This document shows, piece after piece, positions 13,047 to 26,823 of a DNA stretch of 64,000 nucleotides. The DNA comes from Saccharopolyspora ipomoeae. GTDB taxonomy: Bacteria > Actinomycetota > Actinomycetes > Mycobacteriales > Pseudonocardiaceae. The first letter of the stretch is position 1. The number at the start of each line of letters is the position of its first letter. Location of the stretch: NCBI RefSeq assembly GCF_029952525.1, contig NZ_JASAOF010000006.1:1-64000 (forward strand). The letters are read 5' to 3'. Under the pieces are notes generated by a model, which was not told where the DNA came from, did no database searches, and saw only the letters and a list, made by a program, of their open reading frames with translations. The translations under genes were made by a program, and so were the position numbers.

Positions 13047-14198
13047 TCAGGCGGGGACGGGCAGCCGGCCGCGCAGCCGCATCGCCTCGCGGACCCGCTG
13101 CTCGGCCATCGCCAGCGCCGCCGCGTGCGGCAGCACGCCCTCGCGCGCGGCGGCGTCGAGCACCAGCAGGGTGTTGCGCCGGGTGCGGGCCGCGACCTCG
13201 TCGAGGATGCGGGCCGGTTCGGGCCGGAACGCGGAGCGCCGGGCGTCCATCGCGAACCCGGCCGCGATCGCCCCACCGGCGTTGGCGATGAAGTCCGGCA
13301 CGATCTCCACCCCCCGCGCGCCCAGCGCCTCCCGGGCGCGCGGCGTGGTCGGCAGGTTGGCGCCCTCCACGATCAGCCCGGCCCTGATCCGCTCGGCCAC
13401 CGTCGGGTCGATGACGTCCTGCCGGGCCGCCGGGATCAGCACGTCGCAGTCCACGGTGAGCTCCTCGCCCTGGGCGATCCGCTGCGCGGGTGCGGCTTTG
13501 GCGACGCAGGCGTCGCCGAACTCCGCCCGCGCGGCCAGCCACTCGGGCACGTCGAGCCCGTTCGCGTCGTGCACCGAACCGTCCACGGTGGACAGCGCGA
13601 CGAGCTGGGCGCCGAACTCGTGCAGCCGCGCGGCGGTGGCCGCGCCGACCGCGCCGAAGCCCTGCACCGCGATCCGCGCCCCGGCCACCGGTTTCCCGGC
13701 GCGCTCCAGCGCGGCCAGCGCCGCCTCGGCGACACCGTGCCCGGTCACCCCGAGCTGGTCGTAGGGCACCCCGCCGAGGGCTTCCGGGACGCCGACGGCC
13801 GCGCCGCGATCGGCGAGCTCGTCCTGGATGATCGCCGCGTCGTGCTCGGTCATCCCCATGTCCAGCCCGGCGACGTAGCTGGCCGGGATCTGGTCGGCCA
13901 GCCGCCGCGCGAACGCGCGCACCACGGCTTCCTTGTCGGGCGAGTCCGGGTCGGCGACGATCCCGGCCTTCGCGCCGCCGTGGAAGAGGTCGACCGCCGC
14001 CCACTTCCAGGTCATCACGCGCGCCAGCCGCGCGACCTCGCCGACGGTCACCGTCGGCGCCATGCGGGTGCCGCCCTTGCCGGTGCCGCGCGCGGTGTTG
14101 TCGATGACCAGCACGCCCCGCATCCCGGTGCGAGCGTCGGAGACGCAGACGACCTTCTCCGGGCCCCACTCGTCGATCTCCTGCAACAGGTCGACCAC
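13047..14198 (-). CDS. Glu/Leu/Phe/Val dehydrogenase family amino acid dehydrogenase
   Basis: A 383-residue NAD(P)-dependent amino acid dehydrogenase. The catalytic-lysine region reads FHGGAKAGI near residue 78 and the Rossmann motif VQGFGAVGAATAARL is near residue 190. Members interconvert an L-amino acid with its 2-oxoacid and ammonia. It is the third gene of the operon, 12 bases after the FAD oxidase. The genomic setting next to an ALDH7-like gene suggests a substrate such as 2-aminoadipate, but leucine, valine or glutamate cannot be excluded. It differs clearly from the second family member at 25115. Confidence 0.85.
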   Translation of the reverse strand: MVDLLQEIDEWGPEKVVCVSDARTGMRGVLVIDNTARGTGKGGTRMAPTVTVGEVARLARVMTWKWAAVDLFHGGAKAGIVADPDSPDKEAVVRAFARRLADQIPASYVAGLDMGMTEHDAAIIQDELADRGAAVGVPEALGGVPYDQLGVTGHGVAEAALAALERAGKPVAGARIAVQGFGAVGAATAARLHEFGAQLVALSTVDGSVHDANGLDVPEWLAARAEFGDACVAKAAPAQRIAQGEELTVDCDVLIPAARQDVIDPTVAERIRAGLIVEGANLPTTPRAREALGARGVEIVPDFIANAGGAIAAGFAMDARRSAFRPEPARILDEVAARTRRNTLLVLDAAAREGVLPHAAALAMAEQRVREAMRLRGRLPVPA

Positions 14199-18993: not shown

Positions 18994-21968
<2,975 letters not shown>

Positions 21969-23752: not shown

Positions 23753-24601
23753 CTAGACGCGCTCGCCGGTGATGGCGGCGACGGCGCGTTCGCGCTGCGG
23801 TTCGGTGACCTCCGGGAGCTGGAAGCCCCGGGCGCGGATGTGGTTGAGCAGGTCGGGCTCCGGCGCCACGCCGTGCTGACGCAGGTAGTAGGCCACCGCG
23901 CCCGGCCAGATCCAGGTCCCGTCGGTGTGGAAGGTCATCGGCACCGCGCCGGTGCGCTGCCGGTCCAGCCGGTCGTCGTCGTAGCTGCGCGCGGCCAGCA
24001 CGACCGGGGCCGTCTCCAAGTACTCCGCCACTCGATCGGCCTCCGCGCGACCGATCTCGGCACGCTCGGTGATCGGGTTGCCGCGGTCGTCGAAGACCTC
24101 CGCGGTGCGCAGCTGCGGGCCACCGGCCTGCGGGGGCCCGGGTTGCGGCGATCCGACCTGCGGGGCGGCCTCGCCGGCGAGCCACTGCGGGGTGGCGGCC
24201 GCCGGGCGCGGGTGCAGCCGCAGCTCCTCCGCGCGGGCTGAGGGTGGGGGAGGGGTCTGCCATTCGGGTTCGCGGTCGCCGTTGAAGTCGACCGCGTAGC
24301 TGCCGGGCCGCTGCAGCCGGTAGACCGCGCTGACCCAGGTGCCCCGATCGGGCTGGTACATGCCGCGCCGCAGCCGCTCGAACAGCGGACCCGCTTCCGG
24401 GGGCGCGGCGAGCGGGATCGCGCTGCCGTTGGGCGCGATCAACCGGCACACCGTCTCGACGTGGCCGCCGAGGGAGCGGTACTCCGTCGTGGACTCGTGC
24501 CAGCCGGGTGGAAGCGCGCGCACGATCACCCGGCCGATCTCCTGGATCAACTGCTGCTGCGTGGCTTCATCCAGCGATCCCGGCGGCTCAGGTTGGCTCA
24601 T
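23753..24601 (-). CDS. Protein with YezG/DUF600-like N-terminal domain
   Basis: A 282-residue soluble protein. Residues 15-115 resemble the YezG/DUF600 immunity-protein fold: an amphipathic first helix, RRGMYQPDRGTWVSAVYRL and GSYAVDFNGDREPEW. A proline/glutamine-rich linker (about 115-165) leads to a C-terminal domain with FDDRGNPITERAEIGR and MTFHTDGTWIWPGAVAYYLRQHG, which I do not recognise beyond similar actinobacterial hypotheticals. ATG 24601 is preferred over ATG 24610 because GGAAGG lies nine bases before it. DUF600 proteins act as immunity or antitoxin partners, but no toxin gene is adjacent, so the role is open. Confidence 0.6.
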   Translation of the reverse strand: MSQPEPPGSLDEATQQQLIQEIGRVIVRALPPGWHESTTEYRSLGGHVETVCRLIAPNGSAIPLAAPPEAGPLFERLRRGMYQPDRGTWVSAVYRLQRPGSYAVDFNGDREPEWQTPPPPSARAEELRLHPRPAAATPQWLAGEAAPQVGSPQPGPPQAGGPQLRTAEVFDDRGNPITERAEIGRAEADRVAEYLETAPVVLAARSYDDDRLDRQRTGAVPMTFHTDGTWIWPGAVAYYLRQHGVAPEPDLLNHIRARGFQLPEVTEPQRERAVAAITGERV

Positions 24602-24862
24602 GACTCCCATCCTTCCAGTCGTGCAGCGAGGCGGTGCACGCCGTTCCCCGAGTCCGGATTCGACCCTTCCGCTCCGGGATGTCGGATTCGCGGAATCGGG
24701 GGCGAAGGCATCACGAGCGCCTTCGGGGGGAAGCTTAGGACCAACGCGGCGCCAGCGGGGGCCGGTTGAGTTGATCTCGTTACGCAGCAACCGGATACGC
24801 CCGTTTTACCGGCCGTCATGCACCCGTTCCGACGTCGTAACGGTTGTCCGAACCGACGATTG
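24602..24862. other. Gene-free region between YezG-like gene and leader
   Basis: No gene is supported here. Third-position composition of the frames is poor and the DNA is AT-richer toward 24780-24860. It must contain the minus-strand promoter of the YezG-like gene, but no hexamer pair stands out. Confidence 0.4.
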
Positions 24863-24892
24863 TTGACAATCTCTCACCCCCGGCCTTAGCTT
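24863..24892 (+). promoter_or_regulatory. Housekeeping-type promoter of the leader/dehydrogenase unit
   Basis: A consensus -35 TTGACA is at 24863-24868 and a TA-N3-T -10 box, TAGCTT, at 24887-24892, with an 18-base spacer. Transcription would begin near 24899, about 26 bases before the small leader ORF. Confidence 0.6.
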
Positions 24893-24924
24893 CGAGCCAT
24901 TGGGCGGACGCGGGAGGTGGACTC

Positions 24925-25014
24925 ATGCGAACCGAGTTGAAGAGCTTTCCGCGTCCGACCCGGTCTGCGGACCTTCTCCTCACGATCAGACTCCTCGAAT
25001 TAGCACGTAGCTGA
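24925..25014 (+). CDS. Leucine-rich 29-codon leader peptide
   Basis: ATG 24925 has a strong GGGAGGTG site and opens a 29-codon frame ending at TGA 25012-25014. Residues 17-26 are DLLLTIRLLELA-like: six of ten codons there encode leucine, and the last of these is TTA, the rare bldA-type codon. It lies between a consensus promoter and a perfect palindrome ahead of a Leu/Val/Glu-type amino acid dehydrogenase gene. This is the classic layout of a ribosome-mediated attenuator, in which stalling at leucine codons would change the downstream RNA fold. Expression and attenuation are inferred; the peptide itself has no recognised family. Confidence 0.6.
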   Translation: MRTELKSFPRPTRSADLLLTIRLLELARS

Positions 25015-25021
25015 TCGGCTT

Positions 25022-25061
25022 CGACGAACCACACAGGGCGGATATCCGCCCTATCTCGTCG
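25022..25061 (+). promoter_or_regulatory. Palindromic hairpin between leader peptide and dehydrogenase gene
   Basis: AGGGCGGATATCCGCCCT at 25035-25052 is a perfect 18-bp palindrome, and CGACGA (25022-25027) pairs with TCGTCG (25056-25061) outside it. No U tract follows. It can act as an attenuator hairpin in RNA or as a dyad operator in DNA. A competing hairpin, GTCCG/CGGAC, lies inside the leader ORF at 24953-24972. Confidence 0.55.
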
Positions 25062-25114
25062 TTGCCCGATCGCGTTACCCCGTCTCGTATGCGCTCTGAA
25101 AGGAGGTATCGCCC

Positions 25115-26308
25115 ATGGGACTCGTCGGCGGCGAACCGCTCATGAAGGTGACCTGGACGGATCCGGTGACAGGCAGCAACGGCTTCCTCGTCGTGCACAG
25201 CCTGGTGTCGGGTCTCGCCACCGGCGGGACCAGGATGCGTGCCGGTTGCACGATGGAAGAGGTCGAGCACCTGGCGCGCGGCATGGCCCGCAAGACCGCT
25301 GTCTTCGAGTTGCCCGTGGGCGGGGCGAAGGGCGGCATCGACTGCGACCCGAAGGACCCGCAGGCCAAGGGAGTGCTCCGGCGCTACCTCCAGGCGATGC
25401 GCCCGTGGCTGGACGCGCACTGGGTGACCGCCGAGGACCTCGGCGTGCCGCAGCACCTGATCGACGACGCGTTCGAGGAGCTGGGGATGCACCAGTCCTA
25501 CCACGCGGCCATCCGCCGGTCCCCGGACGTGGAGCGCACGCTGCGCCGGGTGCGGGCCGGGCTCAACGCACCGGTGCCGGGCGGACTGCTGCTCGGTGAC
25601 GTCGTCGGCGGTTACGGCGTCGCCCAGTGCTGCCTGGGCGTGGTGCACGCCCGCGACTGGGCCGCGGAGGAGACCACCGTGGCCGTGCAGGGCGTGGGCA
25701 CGATGGGTGGCGGCGCCGCCTTCTACCTGCACGAGGCGGGGCTGAAGGTGGTGGCGATGGCCGACGCGGCCGGAACCCTCTACCACCCGGACGGGCTGGA
25801 CGTCCCGACGCTGCTGGAGGCCCGCGACCGGTTCGGCGAGATCGACCGCGACCAGGTCCCGGCCGGTGTGGAGCTGCTGCCGCGCGACGCGGTGCTCTCC
25901 CAGGAGGTCGACGTCCTGATCCCGGCGGCGGTGTCCTTCGCGATCGGCACCGACCGGGTGCCGGACGTGGCGGCGCGGGTGATCGTCGAGGCGGCCAACA
26001 ACCCGGTCACGCCCGAGGCGGAGGAACTGCTGGCCACCCGCGGGATTCCGGTCATCCCGGACTTCGTGGCCAACGCCGGTGCCGCGGCGTGGGCGTGGTG
26101 GCTGCTGCTCGGGCGGGTCGACGCCGATCCCGTGCTGTCCTTCCAGGTGCTGCGCGAGGAGATGCTGGCCAAGATCCCGCTGCTGCTGGCGGCCTGGGAC
26201 ACCGAGGGGCACACGCCGCGCGACGCGGCGCTGATGCTGGCCGAGCAGCGCACCGAGCAGAACCGGGTCGCCGAGGAGAGCGGGGAGGCCCTGCTGAGCA
26301 TTCCGTGA
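25115..26308 (+). CDS. Glu/Leu/Phe/Val dehydrogenase
   Basis: A 397-residue NAD-dependent amino acid dehydrogenase. GGAKGGI near residue 70 carries the catalytic lysine region; VQGVGTMGGGAAFYL near 195 is the Rossmann glycine motif; FVANAGAAAWAWW near 315 is typical of the C-terminal half. Reductive deamination of leucine, valine or glutamate is the family reaction, feeding branched-chain oxoacids to catabolism or precursor supply. ATG 25115 has an excellent AAGGAGG site. The leucine-rich leader and palindrome upstream suggest control by leucine or charged leucyl-tRNA, favouring a branched-chain substrate. A hairpin terminator follows, so it is monocistronic. Confidence 0.85.
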   Translation: MGLVGGEPLMKVTWTDPVTGSNGFLVVHSLVSGLATGGTRMRAGCTMEEVEHLARGMARKTAVFELPVGGAKGGIDCDPKDPQAKGVLRRYLQAMRPWLDAHWVTAEDLGVPQHLIDDAFEELGMHQSYHAAIRRSPDVERTLRRVRAGLNAPVPGGLLLGDVVGGYGVAQCCLGVVHARDWAAEETTVAVQGVGTMGGGAAFYLHEAGLKVVAMADAAGTLYHPDGLDVPTLLEARDRFGEIDRDQVPAGVELLPRDAVLSQEVDVLIPAAVSFAIGTDRVPDVAARVIVEAANNPVTPEAEELLATRGIPVIPDFVANAGAAAWAWWLLLGRVDADPVLSFQVLREEMLAKIPLLLAAWDTEGHTPRDAALMLAEQRTEQNRVAEESGEALLSIP

Positions 26309-26319
26309 CGACCAGCGGT

Positions 26320-26352
26320 GCGGTCCCCGGGTTCACGCGACCCGGGGACCGC
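26320..26352 (+). terminator. Hairpin terminator after dehydrogenase gene
   Basis: Perfect 13-bp arms GCGGTCCCCGGGT (26320-26332) and ACCCGGGGACCGC (26340-26352) enclose a 7-base loop, 12 bases after the stop codon. Confidence 0.75.
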
Positions 26353-26421
26353 GTCGTTCGAACTCGAAAAGTCTTGTGGCGGACCGGGTACGGTCTCATG
26401 CTGACCGCCTGCGATCAACGT

Positions 26422-26450
26422 GTGACAACCTGCTACCACGGTGCTAGCGT
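26422..26450 (+). promoter_or_regulatory. Promoter of the cold-shock leader
   Basis: GTGACA at 26422-26427 and TAGCGT (TA-N3-T) at 26445-26450 are 17 bases apart. Transcription would start near 26457 and produce a leader of about 160 bases before the cold-shock gene. Confidence 0.5.
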
Positions 26451-26490
26451 GACTCGTGGTTGCGGTTTTGGTCCTTGCAGTACTGGAAGA

Positions 26491-26519
26491 GTGCCTGCCA
26501 GAACGCAGGCGCTTTTTTT
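26491..26519 (+). terminator. Intrinsic terminator within the cspA leader
   Basis: An 8-bp stem, GTGCCTGC (26491-26498) with GCAGGCGC (26505-26512) including one G-U pair, is followed directly by seven T residues (26513-26519). This is a textbook Rho-independent terminator, unusual for this genome, placed 100 bases before the cold-shock ATG and about 60 bases after the predicted transcription start. It could end a short RNA or act as a temperature- or factor-sensitive attenuator. Confidence 0.75.
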
Positions 26520-26619
26520 GTGCCGCGGTGCCTGGCTCCGCGCGCTGCCGGTGATCAGCACTGCCAACCAGGGGTCTGCGCGGTGTTGACCCCGGCCAGC
26601 AGAAACGGGAGAACAAGGA
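26520..26619. other. Distal part of cspA 5' region
   Basis: The segment between the terminator and the ATG holds TTGACC (26585-26590), which could be a second -35 box, and an AAGGA ribosome site before ATG 26620. Together with 26353-26490 this makes a gene-free stretch of about 300 bases. Confidence 0.4.
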
Positions 26620-26823
26620 ATGGCTAGCGGTACGGTCAAGTGGTTCAACGCTGAGAAGGGCTACGGGTTCATCACCCCCGACGGCGGTGGCTCTGACGTC
26701 TTCGCCCACTACTCCGCCATCGACGCCACCGGTTTCCGCACGCTGGAGGAGAACCAGCGCGTGGAGTTCGAGATCGCGCAGGGCCCCAAGGGTCCTCAGG
26801 CGGCGGGCATCCGCACCGTCTGA
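26620..26823 (+). CDS. Cold-shock protein CspA family
   Basis: A 67-residue single-domain OB-fold nucleic-acid chaperone. RNP1 reads KGYGFI near residues 15-20 and RNP2 reads DVFAHY near 28-33; [14 protein letters not shown] is the family start and GPQAAGI the end. It melts RNA secondary structure in the cytoplasm, and many actinobacterial copies are constitutive. An AAGGA site precedes the ATG. The long leader with an internal intrinsic terminator suggests post-initiation control. Confidence 0.95.

Follow-up and report, generated by a model that had tools for sequence, protein, structure and literature searches.

The window, the whole stretch of 64,000 nucleotides from Saccharopolyspora ipomoeae analyzed here, encodes a 397-residue amino acid dehydrogenase of the Glu/Leu/Phe/Val (ELFV) type (Pfam PF00208 and PF02812) at 25115..26308 on the + strand, for which no NCBIfam model was matched at its cut-off. 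In an alignment with glutamate dehydrogenase 1b3b, the Lys of the GPAKGG motif is replaced by Thr, which in this family argues against glutamate as substrate. A second ELFV-type dehydrogenase (13083-14150, - strand) is encoded some 11 kb from the first and shares 37% identity with it, and most genomes of the genus hold a 35-39% match on the same contig as the first dehydrogenase gene. The window also encodes a 726-residue two-domain terpene cyclase (19785-21965, - strand), whose best NCBIfam match, at 1125 bits and below the cut-off of 1200, is the family 2 encapsulin cargo terpene cyclase and whose length resembles that of geosmin synthase. A cold-shock protein gene (26620-26823, + strand) lies 3' of the dehydrogenase, and between the two, outside the leader, there is a weak sub-threshold match to an L31 leader (26320-26350). 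The leader itself had no Rfam match in the window (24300-26700 scanned) or in four relatives.

Upstream of the dehydrogenase, all on the + strand, a -35 box TTGACA (24863-24868) is followed after an 18-bp spacer by a -10 box TAGCTT (24887-24892), or alternatively by TTAGCT (24886-24891) at 17-bp spacing, with transcription predicted to start near 24894. The -35 box sits inside an inverted repeat, GATTGTTGACAATC (24858..24871; GATTGT-TG-ACAATC). A Shine-Dalgarno (SD) sequence, GGGAGGTG (24912-24919), precedes the 29-codon leader ORF MRTELKSFPRPTRSADLLLTIRLLELARS (24925-25014), which has Leu at codons 17, 18, 19, 23, 24, and 26, the last being TTA (25000-25002), and ends at TGA (25012-25014). 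Next comes the perfect 18-bp palindrome AGGGCGGATATCCGCCCT (25035-25052), within a longer hairpin and one of three perfect palindromes of at least 18 bp in the window. Direct reading thus bore out what the initial annotation had described: the promoter, the ORF with its good SD, six leucines in codons 17-26 and TTA, and the palindrome with outer pairing.

The promoter and its proposed operator

A close orthologue of the dehydrogenase (78-100% identity) was found in 21 of 22 genus genomes, G012 having none. The 5' regions of all 21 carry the operator element, as the exact GATTGTTGACAATC in 20 and as GATTGTTGACAATT in one, and the promoter is likewise conserved throughout. Each of these upstream regions also combines GATTGTTGACAAT with a TTA[AG]xTTCGAGC stretch, the leader SD and the leader ORF. 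Because a promoter scan of 24000-26000 returned 0 sites, the candidate promoter rests on this conservation and not on the scan. The exact 14-mer occurs at least once in 22/22 genus genomes, and reversed-pattern controls gave 0.

Two more exact operator sites were located in the genome of the window, in the gene gaps of a GntR-linked catabolic cluster that encodes a class-III aminotransferase, an aldehyde dehydrogenase, a GntR/FCD regulator, two arylmalonate-decarboxylase-family proteins, a DUF3830 protein, a 2-hydroxyacid dehydrogenase and an amidase. At L153:3173-11623 the GntR-linked catabolic cluster, Amdase-family pair included, carries three GATTGTTGACAAT sites. Across the family, the regulator was present in 87 of 140 genomes (E <= 1e-40) and the 13-mer site in 95 of 140. 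The distance from site to GntR gene was scored in 74 of the 87 regulator genomes (each of the other 13 also has a site); all 74 have a site no more than 10 kb from the gene, and 116 of the 144 sites listed in them were near the regulator. Among regulator-negative genomes, the site was found in 8 of 53. From this distribution we propose that GATTGTTGACAATC is the site of the GntR/FCD regulator, with predicted binding over the -35 box that would set dehydrogenase transcription. If so, the catabolic genes of a GntR-type regulon, otherwise uncharacterised, would be linked with the dehydrogenase. Of the open-licence papers holding the operator letters, those listed were on other subjects, one of them on LacI-repressed promoters.

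The leader ORF in the clade of the window

The initial annotation read the leader as a candidate leucine attenuator at which the ribosome stalls on Leu codons, in dependence on the bldA tRNA. In the window itself the leucines stand out: when the bases of the ORF were shuffled without stops, six in ten codons arose in 0.06% of cases, and among 12 SD-led window ORFs of 20-40 codons only the leader has such a cluster. TTA is absent from the 3048 codons of five window CDS. At least one TTA arose in 25% of the shuffled ORFs. Comparison of the window with its five nearest relatives (the clade) gave no support to the leucine and bldA parts of the proposal. Leu counts across the six leaders were 7, 6, 5, 4, 7, and 3, and TTA occurred in 5/6 of them, against 0/26 of the leaders with a WLSSSS-type end described below. 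The pN/pS of the clade ORF was 1.17 (2.43 for the first part, 0.80 for the second), computed from the five 29-codon leaders with the one-codon-shorter L007 left out, and such a ratio is distorted where RNA pairing restrains synonymous sites. With that caveat on synonymous sites, no selection on amino acids is visible in the clade leaders. On conservation, therefore, leucine or bldA attenuation is unsupported, and we regard it as very improbable.

The reading frame fared better. An alignment with related genomes, as the annotation had called for, showed the ORF open in 21/21 genus orthologues, with Leu codons that are not conserved within the clade. Within the clade it is open in 6/6 at 28-29 codons, with a second half unlike that of the other 15 genus leaders. 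In neutral simulations, a frame that stays open across the clade had P = 0.003 with guessed branch lengths, which were somewhat too long. Once the lengths had been fitted to the differences seen between the leaders, the value for L007 still being guessed, P was 0.009, or 0.049 when the start codon was ignored (0.023 and 0.087 without L007). The L006 leader differs TGA-to-TAA at its stop and so retains a stop. The open frame is evidence, if modest, of a role for the reading frame.

The leader ends align in frame, TTA-GCA-CAT-AGC-TGA in L004 with CTG-CGA-CAT-CAC-TGA in L009, a leader outside the clade. In an alignment that is uncertain at this point, the pyrimidine tract ahead of these ends seems to be read with a one-base offset between the two, and this would account for the Leu run.

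A conserved peptide end in relatives

In 15 of the 21 genus leaders, the ORF is 25 codons long and its peptide closes with WLSSSSLWLRH and one further residue, M replacing the first L in one row and the last L in another. The exact tail was found in 24 of 297 family genomes, once in each and in 5 of 46 genera (reversed control 0). It was found in 0 of 394 class genomes, a set that includes only three members of the family and in which tail variants would be missed. The dehydrogenase itself was matched at E <= 1e-100 in 73 of 140 family genomes. Upstream regions were compared for 60 of the 67 non-genus matches (G121, G039, G070, G155, G142, G127, and G037 left out). Eleven of the 60 have the operator element with a WLSSSS-type leader, one of them with A for the first S, and the exact element was not found in 44.

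Over the 11-codon tail of the 26 WLSSSS leaders, from six genera, pS was 0.306 and pN 0.014 (ratio 0.05), against a pN/pS for the head of 0.38 in the genus and 0.47 in other genera. The Ser codons of the tail use all four wobble bases and TCT is common among them, whereas the CGA and CAT codons are fixed in 26/26. In the five window CDS (3048 codons), CGA and CAT occur at 2.3 and 1.3 per 1000 and TCT at 0. The low tail pN/pS and the invariant rare CGA and CAT therefore point to selection on the peptide, possibly also on single codons. As judged from sequence comparison, amino-acid selection appears strong toward the peptide end in the 26 WLSSSS leaders and absent in the clade of the window. 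The conserved leader of the relatives may be an undescribed arrest peptide; in the open-licence literature no paper containing four fragments of the tail was found, none of the titles listed dealt with this leader or this regulator, and a search there for leader peptides with Saccharopolyspora gave, among the matches listed, RiPP papers.

Folding of the leader RNA

The consensus-fold energy of the six clade leaders was 7.0 sd below that of column shuffles (z = -7.0, 0/100), and that of the other 15 genus leaders was 2.6 sd below shuffles (1/50). Four hairpins, P1-P4, make up the clade fold, with 93.0% of cells paired, compared with 37.5-46.8% when the helices were slid. Of 500 shuffles, 1 reached the covariation score, 4 the cells paired and 10 the cells changed on both sides, in a comparison favored by the derivation of P1-P4 from the same sequences; further pair types were matched in 77 shuffles, and the number of pairs with changes on both sides in 214, so that this last number is not above shuffles.

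P1 (24901..24962, +) pairs 24901-24919 with 24943-24962 and encloses the leader SD and start. Its consensus fold was strong in the clade (z -4.93, 0/200 column shuffles) and in the 15 other genus members (z -3.85, 0/200), weak in other genera (z -1.29, 21/200) and non-significant over all 26 WLSSSS leaders (z -0.87, 42/200). The single-sequence mean z was -2.04, with 20 of 32 leaders below -1.5. In the WLSSSS leaders, the base of P1 joins the wobble position of the Arg codon to the 5' end, a pairing present in 9/12 distinct arm pairs (shuffle P = 0.053, with one row, L065, mis-anchored).

P2 (24963..24991, +; 24963-24967 with 24987-24991) holds the pyrimidine tract CCTTCTCCTC in its loop; 96.7% of clade cells are paired and one pair is changed on both sides. 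P3 (25010..25073, +) pairs 25010-25021 with 25063-25073, 25024-25027 with 25056-25059 and 25035-25041 with 25046-25052, so that its 5' arm includes the leader stop codon and the palindrome forms its tip. Each of its outer helices has one pair changed on both sides, and 6/7 apical pairs are invariant. A possible antiterminator-like helix (24983..25017, +; 24983-24989 with 25011-25017) would be exclusive with both P2 and P3. In the clade, 83.3% of its cells are paired (14.3-35.7% when slid), but its 7 window pairs show no covariation and 4/6 rows have 1-3 mismatches of 7. P4 (25086..25111, +) pairs the dehydrogenase SD, GGAGG (25102-25106), locally; 98.1% of its clade cells are paired, and with 8/9 pairs invariant it offers no evidence from covariation.

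A classical 1:2/2:3/3:4 layout can be drawn from P2, the 24983-24989/25011-25017 helix and P3, and these exclusive helices would count for the leucine/TTA attenuator, as do the leucine cluster of the window and a TTA present in 5/6 clade leaders but in none of the 3048 window codons. Against it stand the middle helix without covariation and the want of a terminator: a terminator scan of 24000-26000 gave 0 sites, and P3 has no terminator-like T-run. Of the attenuator layout first proposed, the conserved promoter, the open leader ORF and the hairpins after the ORF, with some compensatory changes, have held up, but no intrinsic terminator was found.

The palindrome might instead be a DNA operator, with the ORF and the RNA folds incidental. 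In L001, L004 and L006 the DNA is perfectly palindromic over 18 bp. Its center is altered in L005 (by an extra base), L007 and L008, which break the DNA symmetry yet keep the RNA stem, and the palindrome does not show up when the other 15 genus members are aligned. We consider an operator at this position disfavored and improbable.

Taken as a whole, the element is real and has the look of a regulatory one; its mechanism is a matter of prediction. Over 32 leaders, predicted pairing of the dehydrogenase SD to the leader ORF averaged 0.54, against 0.27 for synonymous shuffles, and in only 6/32 leaders was the observed pairing reached by at most 1 of 30 such shuffles. Predicted pairing of the SD with the WLSSSS codons had a mean of 0.79 (range 0.43-0.97) in the 15 genus leaders and of 0.22 in the 11 leaders of other genera (0.00-0.14 in g46). 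In the clade, the SD is predicted to pair with the matching tract at 0.10 and with the spacer at 0.53 (0.76 for the spacer in the window). The consensus fold of the 15 joined the flank of the SD to codons 1-4 and not to the tract.

With the last 12 positions masked to simulate a ribosome footprint, predicted access to the SD in the 15 genus leaders was 0.29, up from 0.10 (0.19 with codons 2-8 masked), and in other genera 0.26, up from 0.20 (0.19). In the clade it went from 0.12 to 0.10 (0.11), so that the SD was not freed. By these folding predictions, SD unmasking fits the 15 genus leaders, fits the other genera poorly and does not fit the clade of the window. In translation attenuation of the erm/cat type, the SD of the following gene becomes accessible when a ribosome stalls on the leader; here it is only for the 15 genus leaders that folding predicts such unmasking, and stalling is hypothetical.

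Known leaders offer partial parallels. The LEU element of actinobacterial leuA has a run of leader codons paired with the SD and no settled mechanism (PMC1262725). Both systems are actinobacterial, and the present leader ORF resembles the LEU element in a codon tract that is predicted, mainly in the 15 genus WLSSSS leaders, to pair with the SD of the gene that follows. The LEU element belongs to a biosynthetic gene, leuA, and has a Leu codon run and a pseudoknot (PMC1262725), whereas here the tract is Trp-Leu-Ser, the peptide tail hardly varies, the promoter carries a GntR-type site and the gene encodes an ELFV dehydrogenase. An RNA of the LEU kind, its fold bound by a protein and its translation secondary, would find support in the tract-SD pairing of leuA LEU elements (PMC1262725), which has a predicted counterpart in the 15 genus leaders; with the peptide itself under strong selection in the WLSSSS leaders, we think this extremely unlikely. 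The same source also describes, for Actinobacteria, classical attenuation and leader peptides at trp, ilvB, and leuS (PMC1262725), and a leader ORF is given for Corynebacterium ilvB (PMC11109978). These attenuators share with our locus a leader ORF and successive hairpins; here no intrinsic terminator was found in 24000-26000, and there is no conserved run of one regulatory codon.

The initial annotation had also called a leader peptide before a catabolic dehydrogenase unusual, but such peptides are known ahead of catabolic genes: TnaC of the E. coli tna operon controls tryptophan catabolism as a leader peptide that arrests ribosomes and blocks Rho (PMC10941005). Shared with TnaC are a short peptide, a conserved Trp and conserved last residues, and a position before an amino-acid catabolic gene; the clade of the window is without the conserved tail, and the likeness is drawn as an analogy. 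Control of transcription might follow the same plan, with an arrested ribosome at the leader end blocking Rho and its release letting Rho stop transcripts before the dehydrogenase. The missing intrinsic terminator, the almost invariant peptide end next to the stop, the 98-224 nt between leader stop and gene-start match in 32 leaders and the precedent itself (PMC10941005) speak for this. The region 3' of the stop is predicted to be structured, not open, and we hold such control to be possible but rather unlikely.

The clade ORF could also be a decaying remnant of an ancestral arrest-peptide element. The contrast in pN/pS between the clade ORF (1.17) and the tail of the WLSSSS leaders (0.05), a predicted SD access unlinked to leader occupancy and an open frame that is only modestly unexpected agree with a relic. 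The frame that is open in 6/6, the retained stop of L006 and the strong fold conservation do not, and decay seems doubtful to us.

We tentatively prefer, at well short of even confidence, a GntR-controlled promoter followed by a translation-dependent leader that was ancestrally of the arrest-peptide type and whose peptide code has been lost in the clade of the window. From the conservation patterns, the sites and the predicted folds, we infer translation, stalling and the direction of effect. The transcript would start with the structured leader, and the short ORF would be translated. In most relatives, the nascent WLSSSSLWLRH peptide would stall the ribosome on its own tail, and the stalled ribosome would cover WLSSSS codons that are otherwise paired with the SD in most genus members, turning dehydrogenase translation on. 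In the clade, the tail has probably been scrambled by frame-shifting indels, a history that rests on the uncertain alignment, and a similar pyrimidine tract would now be read as Leu/Pro. Amino-acid selection would have been lost, leaving the folded leader P1-P4 with its open frame; ribosome transit would most likely melt P1 and P2 and end inside P3, with no sensing of leucine. A fuller proposal, less probable and in our view unlikely, would make WLSSSSLWLRH the sensing end of an arrest-peptide family so far undescribed, one that controls the dehydrogenase by unmasking its SD under a GntR regulator, with the sensor code erased in the clade and the leader still folded and open. The clade would then show, as a natural case, the translation of a leader uncoupled from the peptide it encodes.

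The two versions, invariant tail and free tail, make it directly testable what leader ORFs are selected for. If the preferred reading holds, the locus would add a leader peptide without a run of a single regulatory codon to those before amino-acid catabolic genes, in bacteria where simple reporters could serve to study it.

More divergent leaders were seen before the same gene in two other genera and were excluded from every pN/pS and fold count. Three of the 60 non-genus upstream regions (L074, L076, and L079, all g43) combine the operator element with a leader holding AWLCLLRVF, and two (L068 and L069, g37), in which the exact element is absent, have leaders with RAWLYW or RAWSCW. All five keep AW and a Ser-containing end, which reads SLRLR, SSRLQ, SFRL, SLWARQR or SLWDRQR.
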